Shown here: piece by piece, positions 5,911-46,145 of the stretch
Layout: every line of letters starts with the position of its first letter
How positions within the stretch are numbered: position 1 is the stretch's first letter
Assembly (NCBI RefSeq): GCF_002148795.1
Contig: NZ_MPOB01000002.1
Location: forward strand, 186,001-250,000
Reading direction: 5' to 3'
Origin: Oceanibaculum nanhaiense
Lineage (GTDB): Bacteria; Pseudomonadota; Alphaproteobacteria; Oceanibaculales; Oceanibaculaceae
DNA: 64,000 nt
Translations under genes and position numbers: made by a program
The notes under the pieces: generated by a model
What the model saw: only the letters and a program-made list of their open reading frames with translations
Databases searched by the model: none
Told to the model about the DNA's origin: nothing

Positions 5911-6836
5911 GCCTTCCCCTGATAGATCTTCACGATGCTGTCCAGCATCGCCAGCGCTTCGGCGCGCGGACGCTGGAAAGTGTTGCGGCCGATGATCGAG
6001 CCGGTGCCGCCGCCATCGCGGATTTCGCGGATTTCGTTGTACAGACCGTCCAGATCCTTCGCCTCGCCGCCGGAGAACACCACCAGACGGCGGCCGTTGA
6101 AGCAGGACTGCACGACGTGGCTGACCCGCTCGGTCATGGTGGCGATGGGGATCTTCTTGCTCTCATAGACCTTCTTGGCGGCCTCCAGCTCCAGCGCTGA
6201 CGTCGGCGGCTTCACCTTGATGATGTGGGCGCCGAGCAGGGTGGCCATATGTGCCGCGTAGGCGCAGATATCGACCGCCGTCTCGCCCGGCTTGGACAGG
6301 TTGCCGCCGCGCGGATAGGACCACATGACCACGGCGAGGCCGACCGACTTGGCTTCCTCGGCCAGCTCGCGGGCCTCTTCCATCATGTCGAAGGCAACGT
6401 CGGAGCCCGGATAGATGGTCAGGCCGATGGCCGAGCAGCCGAGCTTCAGCGCATCGCCGATGGAGCCGGTGACGGCCTGGTCCGGGGCGTCCTTCTCGCG
6501 CGACAGCGAGTTGGAGGAATTGACCTTCAGGATGGTCGGGATCTGGCCGGCAAAGGTATCGGCGCCGGCTTCCAGCATGCCCAGCGGCGCGGCATAGGCC
6601 GACAGGCCGGCATCGATGGCCAGCTTGAAATGGTAATGCGGGTCATAGGCCTCGGGGTTCGGCGCGAAGCTGCGCGCCGGGCCGTGCTCGAAGCCCTGAT
6701 CGACCGGCAGGATGACCAGACGGCCGGTGCCGCCCAGCTTGCCCTGCATCAGGATGCGCGCGAGGTTGGCCTTGGTCCCCGGCGAATCGGATTCGTAATT
6801 ATCGAGGATCTTCTTGACGCGCTGGGTCATCTTCAT
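5907..6836 (-). CDS. fbaB: Class I fructose-bisphosphate aldolase (DhnA/FbaB type)
   Basis: 309 aa, starting [11 protein letters not shown]; the longer open frame upstream is not coding-like. The archaeal/DhnA-type class I aldolase pattern is clear: [14 protein letters not shown] near residue 40, the strand IIKVKPP that holds the Schiff-base lysine, and [12 protein letters not shown] followed by [12 protein letters not shown] at the phosphate site. It cleaves fructose-1,6-bisphosphate to DHAP and GAP without a metal, in glycolysis or gluconeogenesis. Its stop overlaps the thiE start. Confidence 0.93.
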
Positions 6837-7428: not shown

Positions 7429-7528
7429 GATCTGCGCAGGGTAGCTGATATACGGTCTTGCCGCTTTGTCTTTAGGACCTGGCCCTGCTAGCGTCGAGAC
7501 AAAACAAGAAGCGGGAGGAAGGGCCGGC

Positions 7529-8821
7529 ATGGCCGATCAAGCTGCGGAAACCAGCATCGAGCGGCCCTATGGCTGGCTGGTCGTCATCGCCTCAATGGCG
7601 ATGGTGTCGATGGCGTTCGGCGCGATGTACCTGATTGTCGTCGGCATGGTGCCGGTCAGCCAGGAGATGGGCTGGCCGCGCAGCGTGCCGTCGCTGGCGA
7701 ACGGGCTGAACTGGGCCGGCGCCGGGCTGGGCGGCGTGCTGATGGGCTGGTTCGCCGACCGCCACGGGCCGGGGCGCAGCGCCATCATTGGCGGCTTCTC
7801 GCTGGCTGCCGGCTGCATTCTCGCCGGCAGCATGCAGGGCGAATGGTCGCTTTATACCGCACATTTCCTGCTGCTCGGCATCTTCGGCAAGGGCGCCCTG
7901 ATGGTGCCGCTGCTCAGCAACGCGACGCGCTGGTTCGACCGCAATCGCGGCTTCGCGCTGGCCGTGGTCGGCAGCGGCCAGTCGATTGCCGGCATGGTGC
8001 TGCCGCCGATCTTCCGCTACGCCATGGACGAGGCCGGCTGGCGCAATGTGATGATCGGCTATGGCATCGCCTGCCTCGCCGTCATCCTGCCGCTGTCGCT
8101 GCTGCTGCGCCGATCCGCCCCGGCCGCGCCGTCCGAGGCTGGCGGTGATGCGGTGGCCGTGCCGCTGTCCACACCGCTGGCCACCCCGCTACCGGGAGAC
8201 GATGCCGTTGCCTTCGTGCGGCGCGCGGTGCCGTCGCTCAATCTCCTGCATGTGCTGCTCTGCCTGGCGATCATCGGTTGCTGCGTGGCGATGGCGATGC
8301 CCATCGTGCATCTGATGTCGCACGCCATCGATCTTGGATTCTCCGCCGCGCGCGGGGCCGAGATGCTGTCGCTGCTGCTGGCCGGCGGCTTCGTCAGCCG
8401 CCTGGGTTTCGGCCTGCTGGCGGACCGTATCGGCGGGCTGCGCACCATCCTGATCGGCTCGATCGGGCAGGCCGCCACCCTGTCGCTGTTCATCTGGATC
8501 GACGGCTTGACCGGCCTGTATCTATCGGCGCTGGCCTTCGGCCTGGCCTTCGGCGGGCTGGTGACGACCTACTCGCTGGTCGCCCGCGAGCTGTTCCCGC
8601 TGGGCGAGGTCGGCTGGCGGATTGGCGTGATCCTGCTGTGTGGCACGCTGGGCATGGCCGGCGGCGGCTATCTCGGCGGGCTGGTCTATGATCTGGCCGG
8701 CAGCTACCGCATCGCCTTCCTGACCGGCGTCATCTTCAATCTGGGCAATCTCGTCATCGTGCTGGGGCTGCTGTTCCGGCTGCGCCCGCTGGCGTCCGGC
8801 GCGATGGAGCGGGCAAGCTGA
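7529..8821 (+). CDS. MFS transporter (OFA/MCT-like)
   Basis: 430 aa, about 12 hydrophobic segments in two halves separated by a loop near residues 200-230. The loop after TM2 has GWFADRHGPGR, the MFS motif A, and an equivalent GLLADRIGGLR occurs in the second half. Overall pattern resembles the oxalate/formate antiporter and monocarboxylate permease group, so an organic acid is the likeliest substrate, but this is inference. ATG at 7529 is preceded by GGGAGGAA; an upstream in-frame start at 7466 lacks such a site. It stands alone, followed by an AT-rich gap. Confidence 0.85.
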   Translation: MADQAAETSIERPYGWLVVIASMAMVSMAFGAMYLIVVGMVPVSQEMGWPRSVPSLANGLNWAGAGLGGVLMGWFADRHGPGRSAIIGGFSLAAGCILAGSMQGEWSLYTAHFLLLGIFGKGALMVPLLSNATRWFDRNRGFALAVVGSGQSIAGMVLPPIFRYAMDEAGWRNVMIGYGIACLAVILPLSLLLRRSAPAAPSEAGGDAVAVPLSTPLATPLPGDDAVAFVRRAVPSLNLLHVLLCLAIIGCCVAMAMPIVHLMSHAIDLGFSAARGAEMLSLLLAGGFVSRLGFGLLADRIGGLRTILIGSIGQAATLSLFIWIDGLTGLYLSALAFGLAFGGLVTTYSLVARELFPLGEVGWRIGVILLCGTLGMAGGGYLGGLVYDLAGSYRIAFLTGVIFNLGNLVIVLGLLFRLRPLASGAMERAS

Positions 8822-8840
8822 AATACCCTGCCCAAATCCC

Positions 8841-8977
8841 CCCATGCTCGAATACGTATGTGCATAAATAATAAGATAAAAATTGAAGGTTAATTTCCCT
8901 AAATGGAAGCAAAGAGTAACCTCTTTTTAAAGGTGAGCGAATAAGGTTAAAAACCAGAAGAGATCAAGGAGGGGTTC
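8841..8977 (+). promoter_or_regulatory. AT-rich upstream region of the binding-protein/chemoreceptor operon
   Basis: About 130 bp that is far richer in A and T than the surroundings. It contains CGTATGTGCATA at 8855-8866 (see the shared motif finding), a run of TAAATAATAAGATAAAAA that could hold a -10 box, and AAGGAGGGG just before the ATG at 8978. Consistent with the promoter and leader of the two-gene operon; exact promoter elements cannot be fixed by eye. Confidence 0.5.
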
Positions 8978-10183
8978 ATGCGCGTCGTTTCGAAAGCTGC
9001 CGCTACCGTTCTGGGTACGGTTCTGGGCACGGTTCTGGGGCTGGGGTTATTCGCCGCCAGCCCGGCGCCTGCCCTTGCCGCGGCCTCCGGCGTCTATGCC
9101 GATCGGATCGTGGTCGGGCAGAGTGCCCCGCTGAACGGCACGGTCGCCGAACTGGGGATGGCGATGCGCGAGGGGCTGCTCGCCGCCTTCAAGGAAGCGA
9201 ATGACGCGGGCGGTATTCAGGGCCGCAAGATCGAGATGCTGACGCGGGACGATGCGTATCGCGCGGACCGGGCGCTCGCGAATGCCGAGGAACTGATCCT
9301 GACCGAGGGCGTCTTCGCGATGATCGGCTCGGTCGGCACGGCGCCATCCATGGCCGCCATGCAGCTGGCGAATGACATGGGCATTCCCTTTATCGCCCCC
9401 TTCACCGGGGCGCCCGCGCTGCGCCAGCCGGACCTCGATTACGTGATCAATATCCGCGCTTCCTACGATCAGGAAGCCGAGGCCTGGATCGAACGGCTGA
9501 CCGCCGATCTCGACACCAAGCGCATCGCAATCCTGTATCAGGATGACGCTTTCGGAATTTCCGGCGTGATGGCGGTGCGGAAGGCGATGGAGAAGCGCGG
9601 CCTCTCGCTGGTCGCGGAAGGCAGCTACTACCGCAACACCACGGCGGTGAAGACGGCGCTGCTGAGCCTCCGCAAGGCTGATCCGGAGGCGGTGCTGATC
9701 GTTGGCGCCTACCGTCCGGCGGCGGAATTCATCAAGCTGGCGCGCAGCCTGGGGATGGACCCGCGCTTCCTGACCTCCTCCTTCGTCGGCGGCGAGGTGT
9801 TCTCGCAGGCGCTGGCCGCGCAGCGCACCGGCGTGATCGTCACGCACGTCATGCCGTTGCCGCAGGACGAGACACTGCCCCTGGTGCAGCAATATCAGGC
9901 GGCCCTGAAGGCGATGAGCGAAAAGGCGCGGCCCGATACAGTGTCGCTGGAAGGTTATGTCGCCGGCCGGCTGTTCCTGGAGGTGCTGCGCAACATCGAG
10001 GGCGAGCCGACGCAGCGCGCCTTCATCGATACGCTGTACAAGGTCGGCAGCTTCGATCTGGGCGGTTTCACGCTTAGCTTCGGGAAGGGTGACAATCAGG
10101 GGTCGGATGCGGTCACGGTGACCGTGATCCAGGATGACGGGATGCCGCGGCAGGTAGAAAACCTGGCCGGTGCCGGCGGCTGA
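8978..10183 (+). CDS. Periplasmic Liv-type (type I PBP) ligand-binding protein
   Basis: 401 aa. Signal peptide of about 35 residues ending ALAAA, then the LivK/PBP1-type two-lobe fold: [19 protein letters not shown], a [14 protein letters not shown] strand, [14 protein letters not shown] in the ligand cleft, and [12 protein letters not shown] at the start of lobe 2. The ligand is unknown; the family binds branched amino acids, amides or aromatic acids. Unusually, the next gene (32 bp downstream) is a chemoreceptor and there is no permease or ATPase nearby, so this protein may present its ligand to the receptor rather than feed an ABC transporter. Strong Shine-Dalgarno site. Confidence 0.88.
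9008..9043 (+). repeat. 12-bp tandem repeat inside a signal-peptide coding region
   Basis: Three consecutive 12-bp units beginning GTTCTGGG at 9008, 9020 and 9032, the first two differing at one base, the third at its last four. They encode the repeated [12 protein letters not shown] stretch in the hydrophobic core of the signal peptide. Confidence 0.85.
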
Positions 10184-10215
10184 CGGAACAGTCTAGTAAG
10201 GACGGGAAGCGGGTC

Positions 10216-12891
10216 ATGACGGAAACGCACGAAAACAGGAATGGCGAGATGGAAGCCGAGACCGTGGAAAATGCCGAGACGGCTGCCGAAACCTCGCCCC
10301 GCAAGCGAAGCCGCGGGCTTGGCATCCGCGAGAAGCTGCTGCTCGCCTTTGGCGGTGCCGCGATCATGACGGTGCTGGCCGGCGGTGTCGCCTGGCTGTC
10401 CTTCGAGCGGGTGAAGGTCAGTCTGGCGACCATCACCGAGGAAGCCGTGCCGATGTCGGAAAGCGCGCTGAAGATCGCCGCCGACGTGAACGGGTTCCTG
10501 GCGGTGGCGCCGGCGCTGCAGGCCGCCGATACGGAGGCGCGGCGGCAGGAGGCGCGGGCCGCGCTGGACGAGCGAACGAACCTGCTGAATTCCGATATCA
10601 TCGATCTGGCACGGGTGCTGGGCGAACCCGGCGAGGAGCAGGTCCAGGGGCTGCGCACCAGCGTCGAGACGCTGGCCAGCCGGCTGCACAAGATCGACCA
10701 GATCGTGAAGGACTCGCTGGGCATCCAGCGCAAGCGGATGGACATGGTGGACGAGGCCAACCTGGCCCATAGCGGCATCCTGTTCGATGTCGATCCGAAG
10801 GTGGAAAAGGCCCGCACCGGACTGGTCGCCGCCGCCGAGGAGGCGACCACGAACAGCGGCAAGACGATCACCGACCTGCTGGAAAACCAGGTTGGTGCCT
10901 TGCGCGCCGCGCTGGAGGTGAAGGCCGAGGTGAACTCGCTGCTCGGCATCTATACGCAGGTGGCGACGGCGCAGGACGCCACCCATCTGCGCCCGCTGCG
11001 CGACCAGTTCGACGCCACGGCGCGGCGGATCGCGCCCAATCTGGAAAAGCTGTGGGATCTGGGCAGCGGCGCCAATGTGGTGATGCTGGTCGAGGAGCTG
11101 ATCGCCAAGGGCAAGGACGCCAACGGGCTGTTCGAGAGCCGCACCAAGGAACTGACCGGCTCCGATTTCCAGGAGCTGGAGGCGATGCGCAGCCGGCGTG
11201 TCGAGCTGATGCGCGAGCTGCTGGAACTCTACGAGAATCTGACCCTGGCACTGGTCACGCTGGTCGATGATACCGGCTTCGACCTGGTGCTGAGTTCCGA
11301 GGTCACGATCGCGGATAACAGCTTCATCATCACCCGGCTGATGGAGAAGGATGTCGGTATCCTGCGCGCCCTGCTGTCGATCCAGGGCGAGGCCAATCTG
11401 CTGGCCGGCGTGCTGGCGGCGGCGTCGAACGAAACCCGGCTGTCGGAAATCGACACGCTGTCGGGCCGGTTCTCCGGCGCGGTATCGCGCGTGAACGGCT
11501 ATCTGGAGGAGCTGGAGAAGGGCGAGCAGGACGTCTCCATGCTGTCCGGTACGGTCGAGATGCTGGTCGATCTCGGTGCCAGCGAGAATAATCTGTTCGA
11601 GCTTCGCCGGCAGGAGCTGGAACTGGCCAACCAGGCGGTGGAGGCGTTCGAGGCGGCGAAGGTCCAGGCGACCGCGTTGCAGTTCGCCGTCGATGCGCTG
11701 GTCACTGAAGCCTCGGCAAAGATCGAGGATGCGAAGGCGGCCACCAACGAAGTGATCATGGCCAGCACGACGGCGATGCTCGTCATCGTCGCTGCCAGCA
11801 TCATCGGCGCCGTGCTGCTGGGGTGGCTCTATGTCGGCCGCGCCGTCGTCGGCCGGCTGCTGCGCCTGACCGGCGCGATGGAATCGATCAGCCAGGGCGA
11901 CCTGTCGGCCGAGATTCCGAATACGGGCCGGGATGAGATTGCCCGCATGGCGGCCGCGCTTGCGGTGTTCCGAGACAATGCCCTGGCGCTCGAGGAAAGC
12001 CGCACCGCCGCCGACCGGGAGCGCCGCGAGGCGGCCGAGGAACGCCGGCAGATGATGATCCAGCTGGCCGACGATTTCGAGGAGAAGATCGGCGATGTCG
12101 TGAAGGCGGTATCGACAGCCGCCAACGGCCTGAAGAATTCGGCCGAGAGCATGGCCCACACGGCGGAGGAGACCCGCACCCAGGCAACCACCGTCGCGGC
12201 GGCCTCGGAAGAGGCCTCCAGCAATGTGCAGACCGTCGGCGTGGCGGCCGAGGAACTGTCCAGCTCGATCAGCGAGATCGGGCGCCAGGTCAGCGAATCC
12301 GCCACCATCGCCCAGCGCGCGGTCAGTGCGGCCGAGCGCACCAATGGCACAGTGCAGGAACTGATGAAGGCGGCGCAGCAGGTCGGCGAGATCGTGCAGC
12401 TGATCCGCGGCATCGCCGAGCAGACCAACCTGCTGGCGTTGAACGCCACCATCGAGGCGGCCCGCGCCGGCGAGGCCGGCAAGGGCTTTGCCGTCGTGGC
12501 CTCGGAAGTGAAGAACCTCGCCAACCAGACCGGCAAGGCGACCGAGGATGTGTCCGGCCAGATCGAGGTGATGCAGGGCACCACGGAAGATGCGGTGAAC
12601 GCGATCACCGAGATCGCGACCATCATCAGTGAGATCAACGAAATCTCCACGGTCATCGCCTCGGCGGTTGAGGAGCAGAATGCCGCCACCCAGGAAATCG
12701 CCCGCAATGTGCAGCAGGCGGCGTCCGGTACGCAGGAAGTCAGCTCCAACATCGTCGGCGTCAGCACTGCGGCGGAACTCAGCGGCACCACGGCGCACGA
12801 GGTGCTGAACTCCGCCAACGACCTGATGTCGCAGAGCGAGCGGCTGCGCAATCAGGTCGATCAGTTCCTGGCGCAGGTGCGCACCGGCTGA
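10216..12891 (+). CDS. Methyl-accepting chemotaxis protein with very large periplasmic domain
   Basis: 891 aa. A cytoplasmic N-terminal tail rich in Glu/Thr is followed by TM1 (about residues 37-60), roughly 455 residues of all-helical periplasmic domain, TM2 (about 515-540, [19 protein letters not shown]), a HAMP domain and the MCP signalling domain. The hairpin tip [20 protein letters not shown] is intact, so it should couple to CheW/CheA. The sensor is about three times the length of a four-helix sensor and looks like a tandem helical (HBM-like) module, suited to docking a binding protein. No CheR-binding pentapeptide at the C-terminus (ends AQVRTG). Cotranscribed with the binding protein upstream; followed by a strong terminator. 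Confidence 0.93.
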
Positions 12892-12915: not shown

Positions 12916-12953
12916 AAAAAGCCCTCCCGGCAGCACCGGGAGGGCTTTTTCTT
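12916..12953 (+). terminator. Rho-independent terminator after the chemoreceptor gene
   Basis: Perfect 10-bp stem GCCCTCCCGG (12921-12930) and CCGGGAGGGC (12936-12945) with loop CAGCA, preceded by five A and followed by TTTTTCTT. Confidence 0.95.
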
Positions 12954-13827: not shown

Positions 13828-14592
13828 TCAGGGCTCGCTCAGCCCGTAGCCGCGCAGTACATCGCGGAAATCCGGCGCGCGCATGGTGTCGAGCAGCAGC
13901 CGGCCGATGGCGTTCACCATCTCGGCGCGCCGGGCATTGCCGATGACGGTCTGGCTGTAGCGCTGGTCGGGCGTCTCGCCGATCAGCAGCGTCTCCTTCA
14001 TCTCCGGCACTTCGGCCAGCAGCCGTTTCAGGAACACATCGTTCAGCACGGCGATTTCGGCTTCGCCGTCGAGCACCGCCTGCAGGCCGTCGCCCGGCTC
14101 CGCCGTCTCCAGAATGTCAAAACGGCGCGTCGCGCCGTTCGTCCCCATGCCGGTGAAGCCGTAATGGAAGCCGCTGACGATGGCGATGCGGCGCTTGGCC
14201 AGATTGGCGAAGAAGCTCTGGTCGCGGTCGGGCTGCGCCAGCGCCACATAGATTTCACTGCCCTCATGCAGCGTGTCGCCGGTGGCGATATTCCCGCGTG
14301 GCCAGCCCCAGTCCGGACTTTCGAAGGCGATCAGGTCGAATTTGCCGCCGCTGAGGCCACTATAGCGCTGCTCCGCGACGGTCGGCACGAAGTCCAGCCG
14401 GTAGCGCGTCTGCGCCTTGTTGGTTGCGGCGATCAGGTCGAGGGTCAGGCCGCCTGGCTGGCCGTCGATGACCTCGACGAAGGGCGGAAAGGGATAGCCG
14501 CCGATGCGGATGGTCTCCGCGGCCAGGGCGGTCGTCGCAGAACCGGACAGCCCGAGAAAAGTAAGCAGCGCTATCCGCGGAATGATCGTCAT
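13828..14592 (-). CDS. Periplasmic substrate-binding protein, PBP type II (amino-acid-like)
   Basis: 254 aa from the ATG at 14592, which gives a clean signal peptide (MTIIPRIALLTFLGLSGS ... ALAAE). The mature part resembles the family 3 solute-binding proteins: ETIRIGGYPFPPFVEV, GGLTLDLIAATNKAQ, FDLIAFESPDW and DGLQAVLDGEAEIAVLNDV. No permease or ATPase gene is adjacent, so it is an orphan binding protein; it could serve a transporter elsewhere or a sensor. An in-frame ATG at 14637 would add 15 residues ahead of the signal peptide. Confidence 0.8.
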   Translation of the reverse strand: MTIIPRIALLTFLGLSGSATTALAAETIRIGGYPFPPFVEVIDGQPGGLTLDLIAATNKAQTRYRLDFVPTVAEQRYSGLSGGKFDLIAFESPDWGWPRGNIATGDTLHEGSEIYVALAQPDRDQSFFANLAKRRIAIVSGFHYGFTGMGTNGATRRFDILETAEPGDGLQAVLDGEAEIAVLNDVFLKRLLAEVPEMKETLLIGETPDQRYSQTVIGNARRAEMVNAIGRLLLDTMRAPDFRDVLRGYGLSEP

Positions 14593-14989
14593 GGCTCCAA
14601 GGCTCTTGCGTCCCGTTGCTGTAACCGTACCCATCATGCGCGAATTCTATTGCGTTGGCGATAGGGGGGCGTTGGCGACGGGGCGGCGATCGGCTGCCCC
14701 CGATTGTTACAAGGCATCGGGAAAAATTTCATATTTTTGCTTTCAATAAAAAATCCTGCGAAAAAATTACCGGAAAAAGGCATTGAATCAGATAGTTGGT
14801 GATTAATTTCGCTGAGCGTTCGAACAGTCGGCGGCAGATCTGCCGGTTCCCGGCTAAGTATCGGGCCTTACAGGGAAAATTCGGGCTTGCGTGGGGGCAT
14901 GGTTGGGCATATATGACCCCCCAGAGCGTATTCGCACGTACCAATGGCCCACCGTGGTTAAGTAACGACGTAACGCGTCTCTTTTGGCT

Positions 14990-41409: not shown

Positions 41410-42624
41410 ATGATGACACGCAGAAACTTTTCCGGCCTGGCACTCGCCGCCGGCATGACCGCCGCGCTGGCGGCAAACGGGCCGGCTATCGCCGCCGACA
41501 AGATCATTCTGGGCGACATGAATTCCTATACCGGCTTCGCTTCCTTCACCATTCCCTACAAGCAGGGCTGGGAGCTGGCGCTGGAGGAGATCAACGCTTC
41601 CGGCGGTATCCTCGGCAAGCAGGTTACGGTGGTCAGCCGCGATGACGGCGCCAAGCCGGCCGACGCGGTGACGGTCGCCAACGAGCTGGTCAGCCGCGAG
41701 GGTGCGACCCTGCTGTTCGGCACGCTGCTGTCGCATGTCGGCCTGGCGGTTTCCGACTTCGCCAAGCAGAAGAAGGTGATCTTCATCGCCGCCGAGCCGC
41801 TGTCCGACTCCATCGCCTGGCAGAAGGGCAACCGCTACACCTTCCGGCTGCGTCCCGGCACCTATGTGCAGGCTGCCATGCTGGCCGAGGAAGCGGCGAA
41901 GCTGCCGGCGAAGAAGTGGGCGACGATCGCGCCGAACTACGAATACGGCCAGTCCGCCGTCGCCGCCTTCAAGGAGCTGCTGAAGGCGAAGAAGCCGGAT
42001 GTCGAATTCGTCGCCGAGCAGTGGCCGGCGCTGGGCAAGATCGACGCCGGCGCCGCCGTGCAGGCGCTGGCGGCGGCCAATCCGGACGCCATCTTCAACG
42101 TCACCTTCGGCGGCGACCTGCTGAAGTTCGTGCGCGAGGGCAAGGTGCGCGGGCTGTGGGAGAAGCGCACCGTCGCCAGCATGCTGAGCGGCGAGCCGGA
42201 CTGGATCGACCCGATGAAGGACGAGGCGCCGGAAGGCTGGCTGGTCACCGGCTATCCCTGGTATGCCATCGACACGCCGGAACACAACAAGTTCCGCGAG
42301 GCCTTCCAGAAGAAGTTCAACGACTATCCGCGCCTCGGTTCCGTGGTCGGCTATGCCGCGCTCTATTCGGTGAAGGCGGCGATGGAAAAGGCCGGCACGA
42401 CCGAGACCGAGAAGCTGGTGGAGGCCTTTGCCGATCTGCAGCTGGGCACGCCGGTCGGGCCGATCACCTACCGCGCGATCGACAACCAGACCACCATGGG
42501 CGCCTATGTCGGCACGCTGACCGTGAAGGACGGCATGCCGCGCATGGTCGATTGGCGCTTCGGCAAGGGCGAAGACTATCTGCCGCCCGACGATGTGGTG
42601 ATGAAGCTCCGCGCCAAGGATTGA
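41410..42624 (+). CDS. Liv-type ABC transporter substrate-binding protein
   Basis: 404 aa. N-terminus TRRNFSGLALAAG looks like a twin-arginine signal, with cleavage near AIAAD. Type I PBP features: KIILGDMNSYTGFASFTI, EINASGGILGKQVTVVSRDD, FGTLLSHVGLAVSDFAK and WATIAPNYEYGQSAV in lobe 2. It would deliver the pathway substrate to the permease and ATPases encoded next. The gap to the permease (184 bp) is filled by a nested inverted repeat. Confidence 0.9.
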   Translation: MMTRRNFSGLALAAGMTAALAANGPAIAADKIILGDMNSYTGFASFTIPYKQGWELALEEINASGGILGKQVTVVSRDDGAKPADAVTVANELVSREGATLLFGTLLSHVGLAVSDFAKQKKVIFIAAEPLSDSIAWQKGNRYTFRLRPGTYVQAAMLAEEAAKLPAKKWATIAPNYEYGQSAVAAFKELLKAKKPDVEFVAEQWPALGKIDAGAAVQALAAANPDAIFNVTFGGDLLKFVREGKVRGLWEKRTVASMLSGEPDWIDPMKDEAPEGWLVTGYPWYAIDTPEHNKFREAFQKKFNDYPRLGSVVGYAALYSVKAAMEKAGTTETEKLVEAFADLQLGTPVGPITYRAIDNQTTMGAYVGTLTVKDGMPRMVDWRFGKGEDYLPPDDVVMKLRAKD

Positions 42625-42643
42625 GCTCGGCTCTCTTTTTTTA

Positions 42644-42786
42644 CCCTCGCCCCGGAAGGGGAGAGGGTGGGAGCGAAGCGAACGGGTGAGGGGAGATGGC
42701 TATGACGGTGCGGCTCTCCCCTCACCCAGCTTCGGCTAAGGCTGACGCCTAAGCCTGCGCATCCCTCTCCCCTTCCGGGGCGAGGG
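42644..42786. repeat. Nested inverted repeat (cruciform-like) between livK-type and permease genes
   Basis: 24-bp perfect arms: CCCTCGCCCCGGAAGG... at 42644-42667 with its complement at 42763-42786, and an inner 13-bp pair GGGTGAGGGGAGA (42684-42696) with TCTCCCCTCACCC (42715-42727). A related CCCTCACCC/CCCTCTCCC element occurs at 46173-46219, so this is another dispersed intergenic repeat family. In mRNA it would form a long hairpin and could lower expression of the permease relative to the binding protein. Confidence 0.88.
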
Positions 42787-42808
42787 AGAATAAAATGGAA
42801 CCCCGCCT

Positions 42809-44680
42809 TTGGAACTTTTCATCGCCCAGCTGATGACCGGGCTCGCCAGCGCCTCGGCCCTGTTTCTGGTCGCCTGCGGGCTGACCATCATCTTCGGCGT
42901 CACCCGCATCGTGAATTTCGCCCATGGCAGCTTCTACATGCTGGGCGCCTATATCGCCTGGACGCTGATCGAGGGGATGGGCGGCGGCGTGCTGGCCTTC
43001 TGGGGCGGGGTGCTGCTGGCCGCGCTCGCCGTCGGGCTGATCGGCGTGGCGATGGAGATGACCATCCTGCGCCGCATCTACCGCGCGCCGGAACTGTTCC
43101 AGCTGCTCGCCACCTTCGGCGTGGTGCTGATCGTGCAGGATGTAGCCCTCTATCTCTGGGGCGCGGAGGATCTGTTGGGCCCGCGCGCGCCGGGGATGAT
43201 GGGCGCGGTGCCGTTCGGCGACCAGCGCCTGCCGGAATACGACATCTTCCTGATCGCCTTCGCGCCGCTGGTGCTGGGCGCGCTGTGGCTGCTGTTCCAC
43301 CGCACCCGCTTCGGCATTCTGGTGCGTGCGGCGACGCAGGACCGGCAGATGGTGGCGGCGCTGGGCGTGAACCAGAAATGGCTGCTTACCGGCGTGTTCT
43401 TCCTGGGCACCGCGCTGGCCGGGCTGGGCGGGGCGGTGCAACTGCCCAAGGGCAATGCCAGCCTGACCATGGATCTCGGCATCATCGCCGAGGTGTTCGT
43501 GGTCACGGTGGTGGGCGGCATGGGCTCGATCCTGGGCGCCTATCTGGCGGCGCTGCTGATCGCGCTGATCCGTGTCTTCGCCGTCGCCAATGCGGATATG
43601 AGCGTGCTGGGCATTCAGTTCTGGCAAGTCGAGCTGGTGCTGATCTTCGCCGTCATGGCGGTGGTGCTGGTGGTGCGGCCCTGGGGGCTGCTCGGCCGGC
43701 GTGAGACGCTGCAGGCGCATCATGGCGCGGTGGAGCCACCCTTGCTGCCGGCCCCTTCGTCGCTGAAATGGTTCGGCCTCGCGGTGCTGGCGCTGCTGGT
43801 GGCGCTGCCTAGCATGACCGGCAATTACGCGCTGACCATCGCCACCGAAATCCTGATCTTCGCGCTGTTCGCCGCGTCCCTGCATTTCCTGATGGGGATC
43901 GGCGGCGTGATCTCCTTCGGCCATGCCGCCTATTTCGGCCTCGGCGCCTATGGCGCGGCGCTGATGGTGAAGCATTTCGCCTGGCCGATGGAAGCCGCCC
44001 TGCTGATGGCGCCGGTCGGCGGCGCGTTGGGCGCGCTGCTGTTCGGCTGGTTCTGCGTGCGGCTGTCGGGCGTCTATCTGGCGATGCTGACGCTGGCCTT
44101 CGCGCAGATCGCCTGGGCGGTCGCCTTCCAGTGGCTCGATGTCACCGGCGGCGACAACGGCATGCTGGGCATCTGGCCGTCTTCCTGGGCCTCCTCCGCG
44201 GCGGCCTTCTATGGCTTCGCCGCCATCGTCGTGGTGCTGGCGCTGCTGGCGCTCCGGCGCATCGCCTTCTCACCCTTCGGCTATGCGCTGCGGGCCGGGC
44301 GCGATTCGCCGCTGCGGGCTGATGCCATCGGCATCGATGTGCGCCGCGTGCGCTGGTTCGGCTTTACCCTGGCCGGGCTGTTCGCCGGTATCGCCGGCGG
44401 GCTGTTCGCCTTCCTGAAGGGCAGCGTCTCGCCCGACCTGATGGCGATCCCGCTGTCGGTCGATGCGCTGGTGATGGTGCTGCTGGGCGGGGTGCAGACC
44501 CTGGCCGGACCGATTGTCGGGGCGGTCAGCTTCACCGCGATCAAGACCGAGCTGGTCAGCCTGACCAATTACTGGCGCATCCTGCTGGGCCTCGTCATCG
44601 TCGGGCTGGTGGTGGCGTTCCCGCAAGGTATCGCCGGCTTCGTTAGGCATCGCTTCATGGGCCGGGAGGATGCGGCATGA
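42809..44680 (+). CDS. Fused LivH-LivM ABC permease
   Basis: 623 aa fusing the two Liv-type permease subunits usually encoded separately (about 290 and 330-420 aa). The LivH half starts MELFIAQLMTGLASASALF and has TRIVNFAHGSFYMLGAY; the LivM half starts near residue 325 and has FLMGIGGVISFGHAAYFGLG and the EAA-like ALRAGRDSPLRADAIGIDV. A TTG at 42809 is the likely start since it restores the usual LivH N-terminus; the ATG at 42795 is out of frame and the next in-frame ATG (42833) would trim the first helix. Shares ATGA with livG. Confidence 0.92.
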   Translation: MELFIAQLMTGLASASALFLVACGLTIIFGVTRIVNFAHGSFYMLGAYIAWTLIEGMGGGVLAFWGGVLLAALAVGLIGVAMEMTILRRIYRAPELFQLLATFGVVLIVQDVALYLWGAEDLLGPRAPGMMGAVPFGDQRLPEYDIFLIAFAPLVLGALWLLFHRTRFGILVRAATQDRQMVAALGVNQKWLLTGVFFLGTALAGLGGAVQLPKGNASLTMDLGIIAEVFVVTVVGGMGSILGAYLAALLIALIRVFAVANADMSVLGIQFWQVELVLIFAVMAVVLVVRPWGLLGRRETLQAHHGAVEPPLLPAPSSLKWFGLAVLALLVALPSMTGNYALTIATEILIFALFAASLHFLMGIGGVISFGHAAYFGLGAYGAALMVKHFAWPMEAALLMAPVGGALGALLFGWFCVRLSGVYLAMLTLAFAQIAWAVAFQWLDVTGGDNGMLGIWPSSWASSAAAFYGFAAIVVVLALLALRRIAFSPFGYALRAGRDSPLRADAIGIDVRRVRWFGFTLAGLFAGIAGGLFAFLKGSVSPDLMAIPLSVDALVMVLLGGVQTLAGPIVGAVSFTAIKTELVSLTNYWRILLGLVIVGLVVAFPQGIAGFVRHRFMGREDAA

Positions 44681-45444
44681 GCGCGGTTCTCGAGGTCGCC
44701 GGGCTTGCCAAATCCTTCGGCGGAATTCACGCTGTCAGTGATGTGTCCTTCACGCTGGATGCGGGCGAGCTGCTGGCGCTGATCGGCCCGAACGGCGCCG
44801 GCAAGACCACCTGCTTCAACATGCTGATGGGCCAGCTTCGCCCGAACGCCGGGACCATCCGGCTGCTGGGCCGAGACATCGCCGGCATGGCGCCGCGCCG
44901 GATCTGGCGGCTGGGTGTCGGGCGTACCTTCCAGATCACCGCCACCTTCGGCTCGATGAGTGTGCGCGAGAATGTGCAGATGGCGCTGCTGTCGCACCAT
45001 AACCGCCTGATGTCGTTGTTTGCCGATGCTGGCCGCCAGTACCGGGAGGAGGCGATGGAACTGCTCGCCCTCGTCGGCATGGCGGCGCAGGCGGAGCGCG
45101 CCTGCGGTGTGCTGGCCTATGGTGATCTGAAGCGGGTCGAACTGGCGGTGGCGCTGGCGAACCAGCCGAAGCTGCTGCTGATGGACGAGCCGACCGCCGG
45201 CATGGCCCCGCGCGAGCGCGTCGAACTGATGGAGCTGACAGCCGCCATCGTGAAGCAGCGCGGCATTTCCGTGCTGTTCACCGAACATGACATGGATGTG
45301 GTGTTTGGCCATGCCGACCGGGTGCTGGTGCTGAATCGCGGGCGGCTGCTGGCCGAGGGCACGCCGGCGGCGGTGCGCGACAATCCGCTGGTCCAGGAAA
45401 CCTATCTCGGTAGCGGGTCGATGTTCGCGGGGGAGGAGTCCTGA
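44677..45444 (+). CDS. livG: Liv-type ABC transporter ATP-binding protein (LivG)
   Basis: 255 aa. Walker A GPNGAGKTT, LivG-specific insert with IWRLGVGRTFQITATFGSM, the signature replaced by LAYGDLKRVELAVAL and Walker B LLLMDEPTAGMAP, then H-loop TEHDMDVVF. Energises uptake through the fused permease. The signature is LAYGD rather than LSGGQ, as is usual in LivG. Shares TGATG with livF. Confidence 0.93.
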   Translation: MSAVLEVAGLAKSFGGIHAVSDVSFTLDAGELLALIGPNGAGKTTCFNMLMGQLRPNAGTIRLLGRDIAGMAPRRIWRLGVGRTFQITATFGSMSVRENVQMALLSHHNRLMSLFADAGRQYREEAMELLALVGMAAQAERACGVLAYGDLKRVELAVALANQPKLLLMDEPTAGMAPRERVELMELTAAIVKQRGISVLFTEHDMDVVFGHADRVLVLNRGRLLAEGTPAAVRDNPLVQETYLGSGSMFAGEES

Positions 45445-46145
45445 TGCTGACCGTCGAAGGGCTGAACGCGCATTACGGCCGCGCCCATATCCTGGCCGAT
45501 GTGGCCTTGACGGTGGGGCGCGGCGAGGTGCTGGCGCTGCTGGGCCGCAACGGTGCGGGCAAGTCCACTACGATGAAATCCATCGTCGGTCTGGTGCCGC
45601 CGACCTCTGGCCGCATCGGTTTCGAGGGCGTGGAGGTCGCCGGCAGGCCGCCCTATGAGATCGCCCGTCTCGGTCTCGGCTATGTGCCGGAGGAGCGGCG
45701 TGTCTTCACCGATCTGACGGTCGAGGAAAATCTGGAGGTCGGCCGGCAGAAGCCGCGCCCCGGCGTGCCGGACTGGACGCCGGAGAAGCTCTATGCGCTG
45801 TTCCCCAACCTGGCCGAGATGCGGCGCCGGCCGGGCGGCCAGATGAGCGGCGGCGAGCAGCAGATGCTGACCATCGCGCGCACCCTGATGGGCAATCCCT
45901 CGCTGGTGCTGCTCGACGAGCCGTCCGAGGGGCTGGCGCCGAAGATCGTCGAGCAGATGGCCGAAACCCTGAAGGCGCTGAAGGCGGAAGGGCTGACGCT
46001 CGTCCTGTCGGAGCAGAACCTGCACTTCGCGCGGCTGGTCGCCGACCGGGCGACCATCATCGAGAAGGGCAGCATCCGGTTTTCCGGCACCATGGAAGAG
46101 CTGATGGCCGACGAGGATTCCCGCCAGGCCTATCTGTCCGTGTAA
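45444..46145 (+). CDS. livF: Liv-type ABC transporter ATP-binding protein (LivF)
   Basis: 233 aa. Walker A GRNGAGKSTT, YVPEERRVFTDLTVEENL (LivF hallmark), signature MSGGEQQML, Walker B LVLLDEPSEGLAP and switch SEQNLHFA. Ends the operon; a hairpin repeat of terminator shape follows at 46195-46219. Confidence 0.94.
   Translation: MLTVEGLNAHYGRAHILADVALTVGRGEVLALLGRNGAGKSTTMKSIVGLVPPTSGRIGFEGVEVAGRPPYEIARLGLGYVPEERRVFTDLTVEENLEVGRQKPRPGVPDWTPEKLYALFPNLAEMRRRPGGQMSGGEQQMLTIARTLMGNPSLVLLDEPSEGLAPKIVEQMAETLKALKAEGLTLVLSEQNLHFARLVADRATIIEKGSIRFSGTMEELMADEDSRQAYLSV

Follow-up and report, generated by a model that had tools for sequence, protein, structure and literature searches.

A periplasmic binding protein gene recurrently paired with receptors carrying TorS-type sensors, as seen at a chemoreceptor locus of Oceanibaculum nanhaiense

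Gene content of the locus

The window, i.e. the whole 64,000 nucleotide stretch of Oceanibaculum nanhaiense DNA analysed here, carries on its plus strand a pair of genes: the periplasmic binding protein gene (BP, 8978-10183, 401 amino acids), assigned to Peripla_BP_6 (PF13458) from its open reading frame, Pfam match and AF2 model, and a methyl-accepting chemotaxis protein gene (MCP, 10216-12891, 891 amino acids), with HAMP and MCPsignal domains above the Pfam cut-off. Both reading frames and the intergenic gap of 32 bp are present as described in the original prediction. The 156 bp located 5' of the BP gene (8822-8977, plus strand) are the probable promoter region: they are largely conserved in the nearest congener and contain, close to the 3' end, an AAGGAGG ribosome-binding site recognised by eye; a promoter and terminator pattern scan listed no sigma-70-like site 5' of the BP gene. 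Downstream of the MCP gene an intrinsic terminator hairpin is found (12916-12950, plus strand), with a perfect 15-bp stem, a 5-base loop and a T5 at the end. At -28 kcal/mol (z -6.4) it is more stable than any of 200 shuffled sequences, in line with the earlier claim that a terminator closes the unit. The hairpin was picked out by eye; the pattern scanner listed no terminator after the MCP gene, probably because the T run belongs to the stem.

Upstream, the pair is bordered by a co-oriented MFS gene (7466-8821), the sole adjoining transporter gene; downstream follows a convergent gene on the minus strand (13828-14637). As had been predicted, no permease or ATPase gene follows, and none adjoins the pair on either side in the window. 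The convergent gene encodes a lone 269 amino acid protein with weak, below cut-off matches to SBP_bac_3 and Phosphonate-bd. The order BP-MCP is identical in three congeners, a comparison that covers the pair itself. HAAT/Liv binding proteins, in distinction to the BP of this pair, are co-encoded with permease and ATPase, and the window itself provides the contrast: the Liv operon at 41410-46145 is composed of a binding protein, a 623 amino acid permease protein and two ATPases. The permease protein of this operon carries two BPD_transp_2 stretches.

The binding protein

The BP matches PF13458 with an E value of 1e-60, has an N-terminus which by eye resembles a signal peptide, and is the sole close copy in its genome, the second-best match having 26% identity. 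Its AF2 model (pLDDT 87.8) has 4kv7 as top match in the PDB (Z 49.1). This entry is titled merely as a possible leucine/isoleucine/valine-binding protein and gave no ligand information for the BP.

The designation "Liv-type" given in the original prediction stands for the Pfam family, which together with the fold is common to LivJ and LivK, and does not hold beyond it. The BP differs from LivJ/LivK by the absence of transporter neighbours and in the pocket: the residues holding leucine in LivJ, which we take to be S79, T102, Y202 and E226, correspond in the alignment to T121, G144, A244 and S268. Since the Liv protein at 41410 likewise is without glutamate at the E226 position, these pocket data argue against a LivJ-like pocket and for no particular ligand. 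An amino acid ligand deduced from the "Liv" name was rejected as unsupported, given the replaced pocket residues. The few neighbour genes read did not agree on any metabolic context from which the ligand could be guessed.

The receptor and its sensor domain

The two most hydrophobic segments of the MCP start at about residue 41 and about residues 512-520, and the stretch between them spans some 450 to 460 residues, in agreement with the periplasmic part of about 455 residues claimed before. They are followed by HAMP (540-588) and MCPsignal (688-852), so that the order TM-sensor-TM-HAMP-MCPsignal is that of MCP chemoreceptors. The sensor region covers about residues 61-513 (10396-11754, plus strand), as delimited by hydrophobicity, profile, AlphaFold model and structure matches.

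Apart from a 4HB match below threshold, Pfam gave nothing for the periplasmic part, PF21689 (TorS_sensor_domain) did not match the window MCP up to an E value of 1, and the NCBIfam TorS match was far below the cut-off (91 of 676 bits, residues 355-609, HAMP included). A profile built from 46 sensor regions did find the TorS sensor among PDB sequences, with an E value of 4.1e-16 and over nearly its full length. The AlphaFold model of the sensor (pLDDT 88.7, pTM 0.59) superposes on the TorS sensor of the TorT-TorS complex (3o1i_A) with Z 18.9 and an rmsd of 2.6 over 268 of 269 residues; for comparison, unrelated helical chains reach Z values of up to about 14. McpS, representative of the HBM chemoreceptors, gives Z 16.3 and an rmsd of 2.5 over 230 residues, and no Pfam HBM match is listed for the MCP. 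The best Foldseek match is the chemoreceptor McpZ (8f7n, E 1.1e-5), followed by TorS chains at 8.6e-4 and weaker; over the whole domain McpZ superposes poorly (Z 13.9, rmsd 10.1 over 327 residues). McpZ, from Sinorhizobium meliloti, resembles the window MCP in that its periplasmic domain is long and helical, and to our knowledge no binding protein partner has been described for it. As judged from the predicted structure, the sensor domain of the window MCP is of the TorS type.

Two other assignments were discarded. Relationship to xylose isomerase came from a chance-level match of the single sequence in the PDB (E 0.033), in place of which the family profile found TorS, and a new fold for the large periplasmic domain was rejected in view of the Foldseek and structure matches to McpZ and TorS.

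The unusual length of the sensor can be traced to a repeat. Self-alignment defines, with approximate limits, a module A (about residues 215-366, 10858-11313, plus strand) and a module B (about residues 367-520, 11314-11775, plus strand) as two copies, residues 218-330 and 372-484 being 33% identical over 116 columns with an E value of 2e-11 in this single pairwise comparison. Of the modelled residues 78-499, TorS accounts for 268 in the alignment, which leaves about 154 extra. In 76 receptor-like proteins encoded directly downstream of BP relatives (see below) the estimated spacing between membrane segments is 264-312 residues in 59 and 431-459 in 17, with none in between. From the two spacing classes, the TorS match and the repeat, the "giant" sensor appears as a TorS-type sensor plus one helical module of about 155 residues, and the enlarged sensor is a recurring size class.

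Occurrence of the pair in other genomes

Scanning of named genomes gave at least 565 confirmed BP relatives, of which the best 80 were kept, a choice favouring close relatives, and 78 of the 80 fetched loci could be judged, since L124 and L154 end too soon. A receptor-like gene is directly downstream of the BP gene in 76 of these 78. The exceptions are L135, which comes after an MCP gene, and L142, both without a downstream transducer. Pfam domains found in the 76 partners are HAMP (74), MCPsignal (42), HATPase_c (23), Guanylate_cyc (6) and SpoIIE (1), and PF21689 is found in 41 of them at E values up to 0.001. Four partners have no recognised output: L103 and L111, where the contig ends, and L137 and L143. 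In the latter two (L137:7086-8162, L143:7043-8161) the BP is followed by a protein of 359 to 373 amino acids with two hydrophobic segments, a middle part of sensor size and no Pfam family, which suggests either a sensor that lacks an output or a truncated gene.

A less selected sample was drawn from the class, comprising 385 genomes, 32 of which hold 39 BP matches at E values up to 1e-60. A line was set at 470 bits after the gap between 478 and 363 bits had been seen. At or above it a transducer lies directly downstream in 24 of 29 matches, including the window and the three congeners. The five BP genes without an adjoining transducer are G118:C29, in a genome which holds a BP-kinase pair as well, G361, where an MCP with a TorS-type sensor but not this BP is encoded far from the lone BP gene, and G253, G262 and G272, where sensor profile matches are restricted to the HAMP region or partial. 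Below the line, the matches at 363 and 319 bits are each followed by a histidine kinase, and seven of the eight at 269-298 bits have, by local profiles, no directly adjoining transducer, L206 and L208 of this group showing a cyclase-like frame about 2 kb downstream. The original prediction had proposed co-occurrence of the pair as a check: from the side of the BP it holds in most loci of both samples, and fails in the five lone genes and in L135 and L142.

Some loci deviate from the simple pair. In G290 (L200:6002-10806) a BP and a TorS-type kinase form a pair, and just beyond the kinase lies another BP, a distant one, which is the eighth match of the 269-298 bit group; one receptor may thus be served by two binding proteins. 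The transducer-less BP genes of L142 (4270-5889) and L193 (3826-5442) both come after the gene for a PBP_like_2-OmpA protein, a possible second conserved setting of the BP.

Among the 23 loci with a kinase partner, the BP gene is preceded by a receiver-SpoIIE gene in 19 and an RsbW-like match is present in 11, both occurring together in 10 and within one frame in L148; these counts were checked by Pfam on examples. Operons of a receiver-SpoIIE phosphatase, often an RsbW-like ATPase, the BP and the kinase (L131, L109, L127, L128, L136, L144, L149 and others) come from records named Chloroflexota, Gemmatimonadota, Actinomycetota and others. In L201 (6755-9271), one of the 24 transducer-bearing loci of the class sample, the protein after the BP unites TorS-type sensor, HAMP, SpoIIE phosphatase and RsbW-like ATPase.

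In two loci, L110 and L115, the BP gene is immediately preceded by LivM- and LivF-like genes (upstream of position 6001) and followed by a gene for a cyclase receptor, so that a shared use in transport and signalling is possible there. For the window, the corresponding explanation would be a BP with a dual role, supplying its ligand to a Liv-type permease whose gene lies elsewhere, and also reporting to the MCP, as the maltose-binding protein does with Tar. Liv-type genes do exist elsewhere in the genome, including the full system at 41410-46145. We nevertheless regard a dual role as unlikely: no permease adjoins in the window, the gene order is the same in the three congeners, and the placement of the BP between receiver-SpoIIE gene and kinase in 19 of the 23 kinase loci is a signalling setting.

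Occurrence seen from the sensor

Searching with the sensor gave matches in 26 of 142 genomes. The BP adjoins in all of the seven closest matches (E up to 8.4e-40, window included) and in 5 of 31 further sensor regions (L044-L074), being absent in 26; the survey left out some weak matches, three of G010 and one of G115. The original prediction had named receptors regularly lacking the partner as evidence against it, and these are found among the more distant regions and not among the closest relatives. Neighbours of the 26 regions were covered in part by a Pfam scan: L056 has a more distant Peripla_BP_6 protein, a DctP protein adjoins in two (L062, L074), a Peripla_BP_4 protein is next door in one, and L052 has only a 128 amino acid BP-like fragment. 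L067 is a TorS-type kinase with a Peripla_BP_4 partner. TorS-type sensors, to judge by neighbours such as DctP, may recruit several binding protein families.

The genome itself served as control. It has 13 MCPsignal matches, 12 besides the window MCP, of which 10 were resolved to a gene and two (L248, L249) were not. For six of the 10 resolved MCP genes the gene upstream is co-oriented, and by Pfam none of these six neighbours is a binding protein: five belong to unrelated families and one has no Pfam family. The CheW profile matches one frame of 164 amino acids and, twice, a CheA-sized frame of 915 amino acids; the probable presence of CheA is deduced from the two CheW-like stretches that the CheW profile finds in the latter frame.

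Exchange of outputs and co-divergence

On a tree of the BPs, made by a quick method and having few well-supported deep branches, with the window on a long branch, the four outputs change 5 times when the four output-less rows are left out. The minimum possible is 3 and the mean of 100 shuffles 26.3. A count of 8 took in the four output-less rows, two of which are merely cut by contig ends. The figure of 5 against 26.3 indicates that outputs were exchanged few times, BP and sensor staying together.

Among 43 MCP pairs, the correlation of BP distances is r 0.78 with those of the sensor and r 0.64 with those of the output. In partial Mantel tests (n=43) the BP-sensor correlation given the output is r 0.59 (p 0.0002, 5000 permutations), and the BP-output correlation given the sensor is r 0.03; shared species history is controlled for by the receptor's own output half, which has an evolutionary rate of its own. 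BP divergence tracks the sensor, not the output.

These data bear on the explanation that the two genes are simply co-expressed, the BP serving a distant transporter and the MCP binding its own ligand directly. Adjacent genes whose products do not interact have been described before: a passage of PMC11113362 describes the P. aeruginosa kinases AgtS and AruS, which have neighbouring binding protein genes and do not interact with their products, and gives adjacency for 10 of 11 kinases activated by solute-binding proteins (SBPs) against only 3 of 11 couples of chemoreceptor and SBP. McpS, with a fold similar to the window sensor, was solved with succinate or malate bound according to the PDB titles, and absence of this BP from 26 of the 31 less closely related sensor regions points in the same direction. 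Retention of the BP with one sensor type under differing outputs, and a divergence which follows the sensor and not the output, leave mere co-expression only a slim chance.

Proposed function of the pair

The reading we favour, at a probability of about 0.72, is that the BP is a dedicated sensory subunit docking on the TorS-type sensor of the adjoining MCP, as TorT does on TorS. Docking is held likely because pairing and co-divergence carry the argument, and recurrence of the pair with the inner half of the receptor exchanged makes the BP look like a dedicated sensor and not like part of a transporter. The receiver-SpoIIE genes beside the BP in the kinase loci and the distant TorS-type MCP of G361 also count in favour. 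Of the readings considered, indirect sensing through a docked BP, as put forward in the original prediction, has the strongest support, which is of a comparative and structural kind.

The BP would be exported to the periplasm, bind a small ligand and dock on the helical sensor domain of the neighbouring MCP much like TorT on TorS. The sensor helices would be shifted when the docked complex changes, and the signal would pass through TM2 and HAMP to modify how active the CheA/CheW array of the cell is. Observed are the gene pair, the sensor fold with its extra module, the conservation of the pair under differing outputs and the co-divergence; the steps that we infer are physical docking, ligand binding, the coupling to CheA, the direction of taxis and the choice between constitutive and ligand-dependent docking. 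Both docking modes have precedents in a passage of PMC6321045, in which TorT binds TorS in both ligand states and the maltose-binding protein binds Tar only when loaded, so that either is possible for the window BP. The same source treats CtpL/PstS, Tar/maltose-binding protein and other SBP-activated chemoreceptors, which share with the window pair the indirect recognition of the ligand; the sensor types and binding protein families of all these receptors differ from those of the window. Activation of receptors by SBPs is described as a general mechanism in part of PMC9602780.

The likeness to TorT/TorS (3o1h, 3o1i, 3o1j), which senses TMAO, lies in a separate binding protein and a membrane receptor with a helical sensor. 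The output of TorS is a hybrid kinase and that of the window receptor HAMP and MCPsignal, and the window sensor has the one additional module of about 155 residues. TorT belongs to what we take to be a family of Peripla_BP_1/Peripla_BP_4 type, unlike the PF13458 protein of the window. Because binding protein family, output and PF21689 on the window protein all disagree, the window pair is not a TorT/TorS member; it is best read as working like TorT/TorS, with chemotaxis as output and another binding protein family. The BP might in principle act as a negative regulator or scavenger which withholds ligand from the receptor. Nothing specific speaks for such a role, it leaves no comparative signal, and docking as in TorT would need fewer assumptions, so that we give it a very remote chance.

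A broader proposal, which we hold as probable with some reserve, is that one Peripla_BP_6 lineage acts as dedicated co-receptor for TorS-type sensors in widespread cassettes, with outputs exchanged and, in some lineages, sensors enlarged by the repeated helical module. The outputs of these cassettes would be chemotaxis, a kinase with SpoIIE/RsbW-like partner switching, a cyclase, and a SpoIIE phosphatase (with the RsbW-like fusion in L201), and the window would hold the chemotaxis form.

Significance

Many chemoreceptors have no known ligand, and receptors that read a binding protein escape direct ligand screens. A BP that keeps appearing beside one type of sensor, whatever the output, and in records whose names span several phyla, is a pointer to the probable ligand-bearing subunit. 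Among the papers listed in literature searches none describes a family of Peripla_BP_6/TorS-type pairs, which a 2021 review of SBPs in signalling (PMC8050422) may mention. If the proposed function is true, the principle of TorT/TorS would be extended to chemotaxis and second-messenger receptors by way of another binding protein family.
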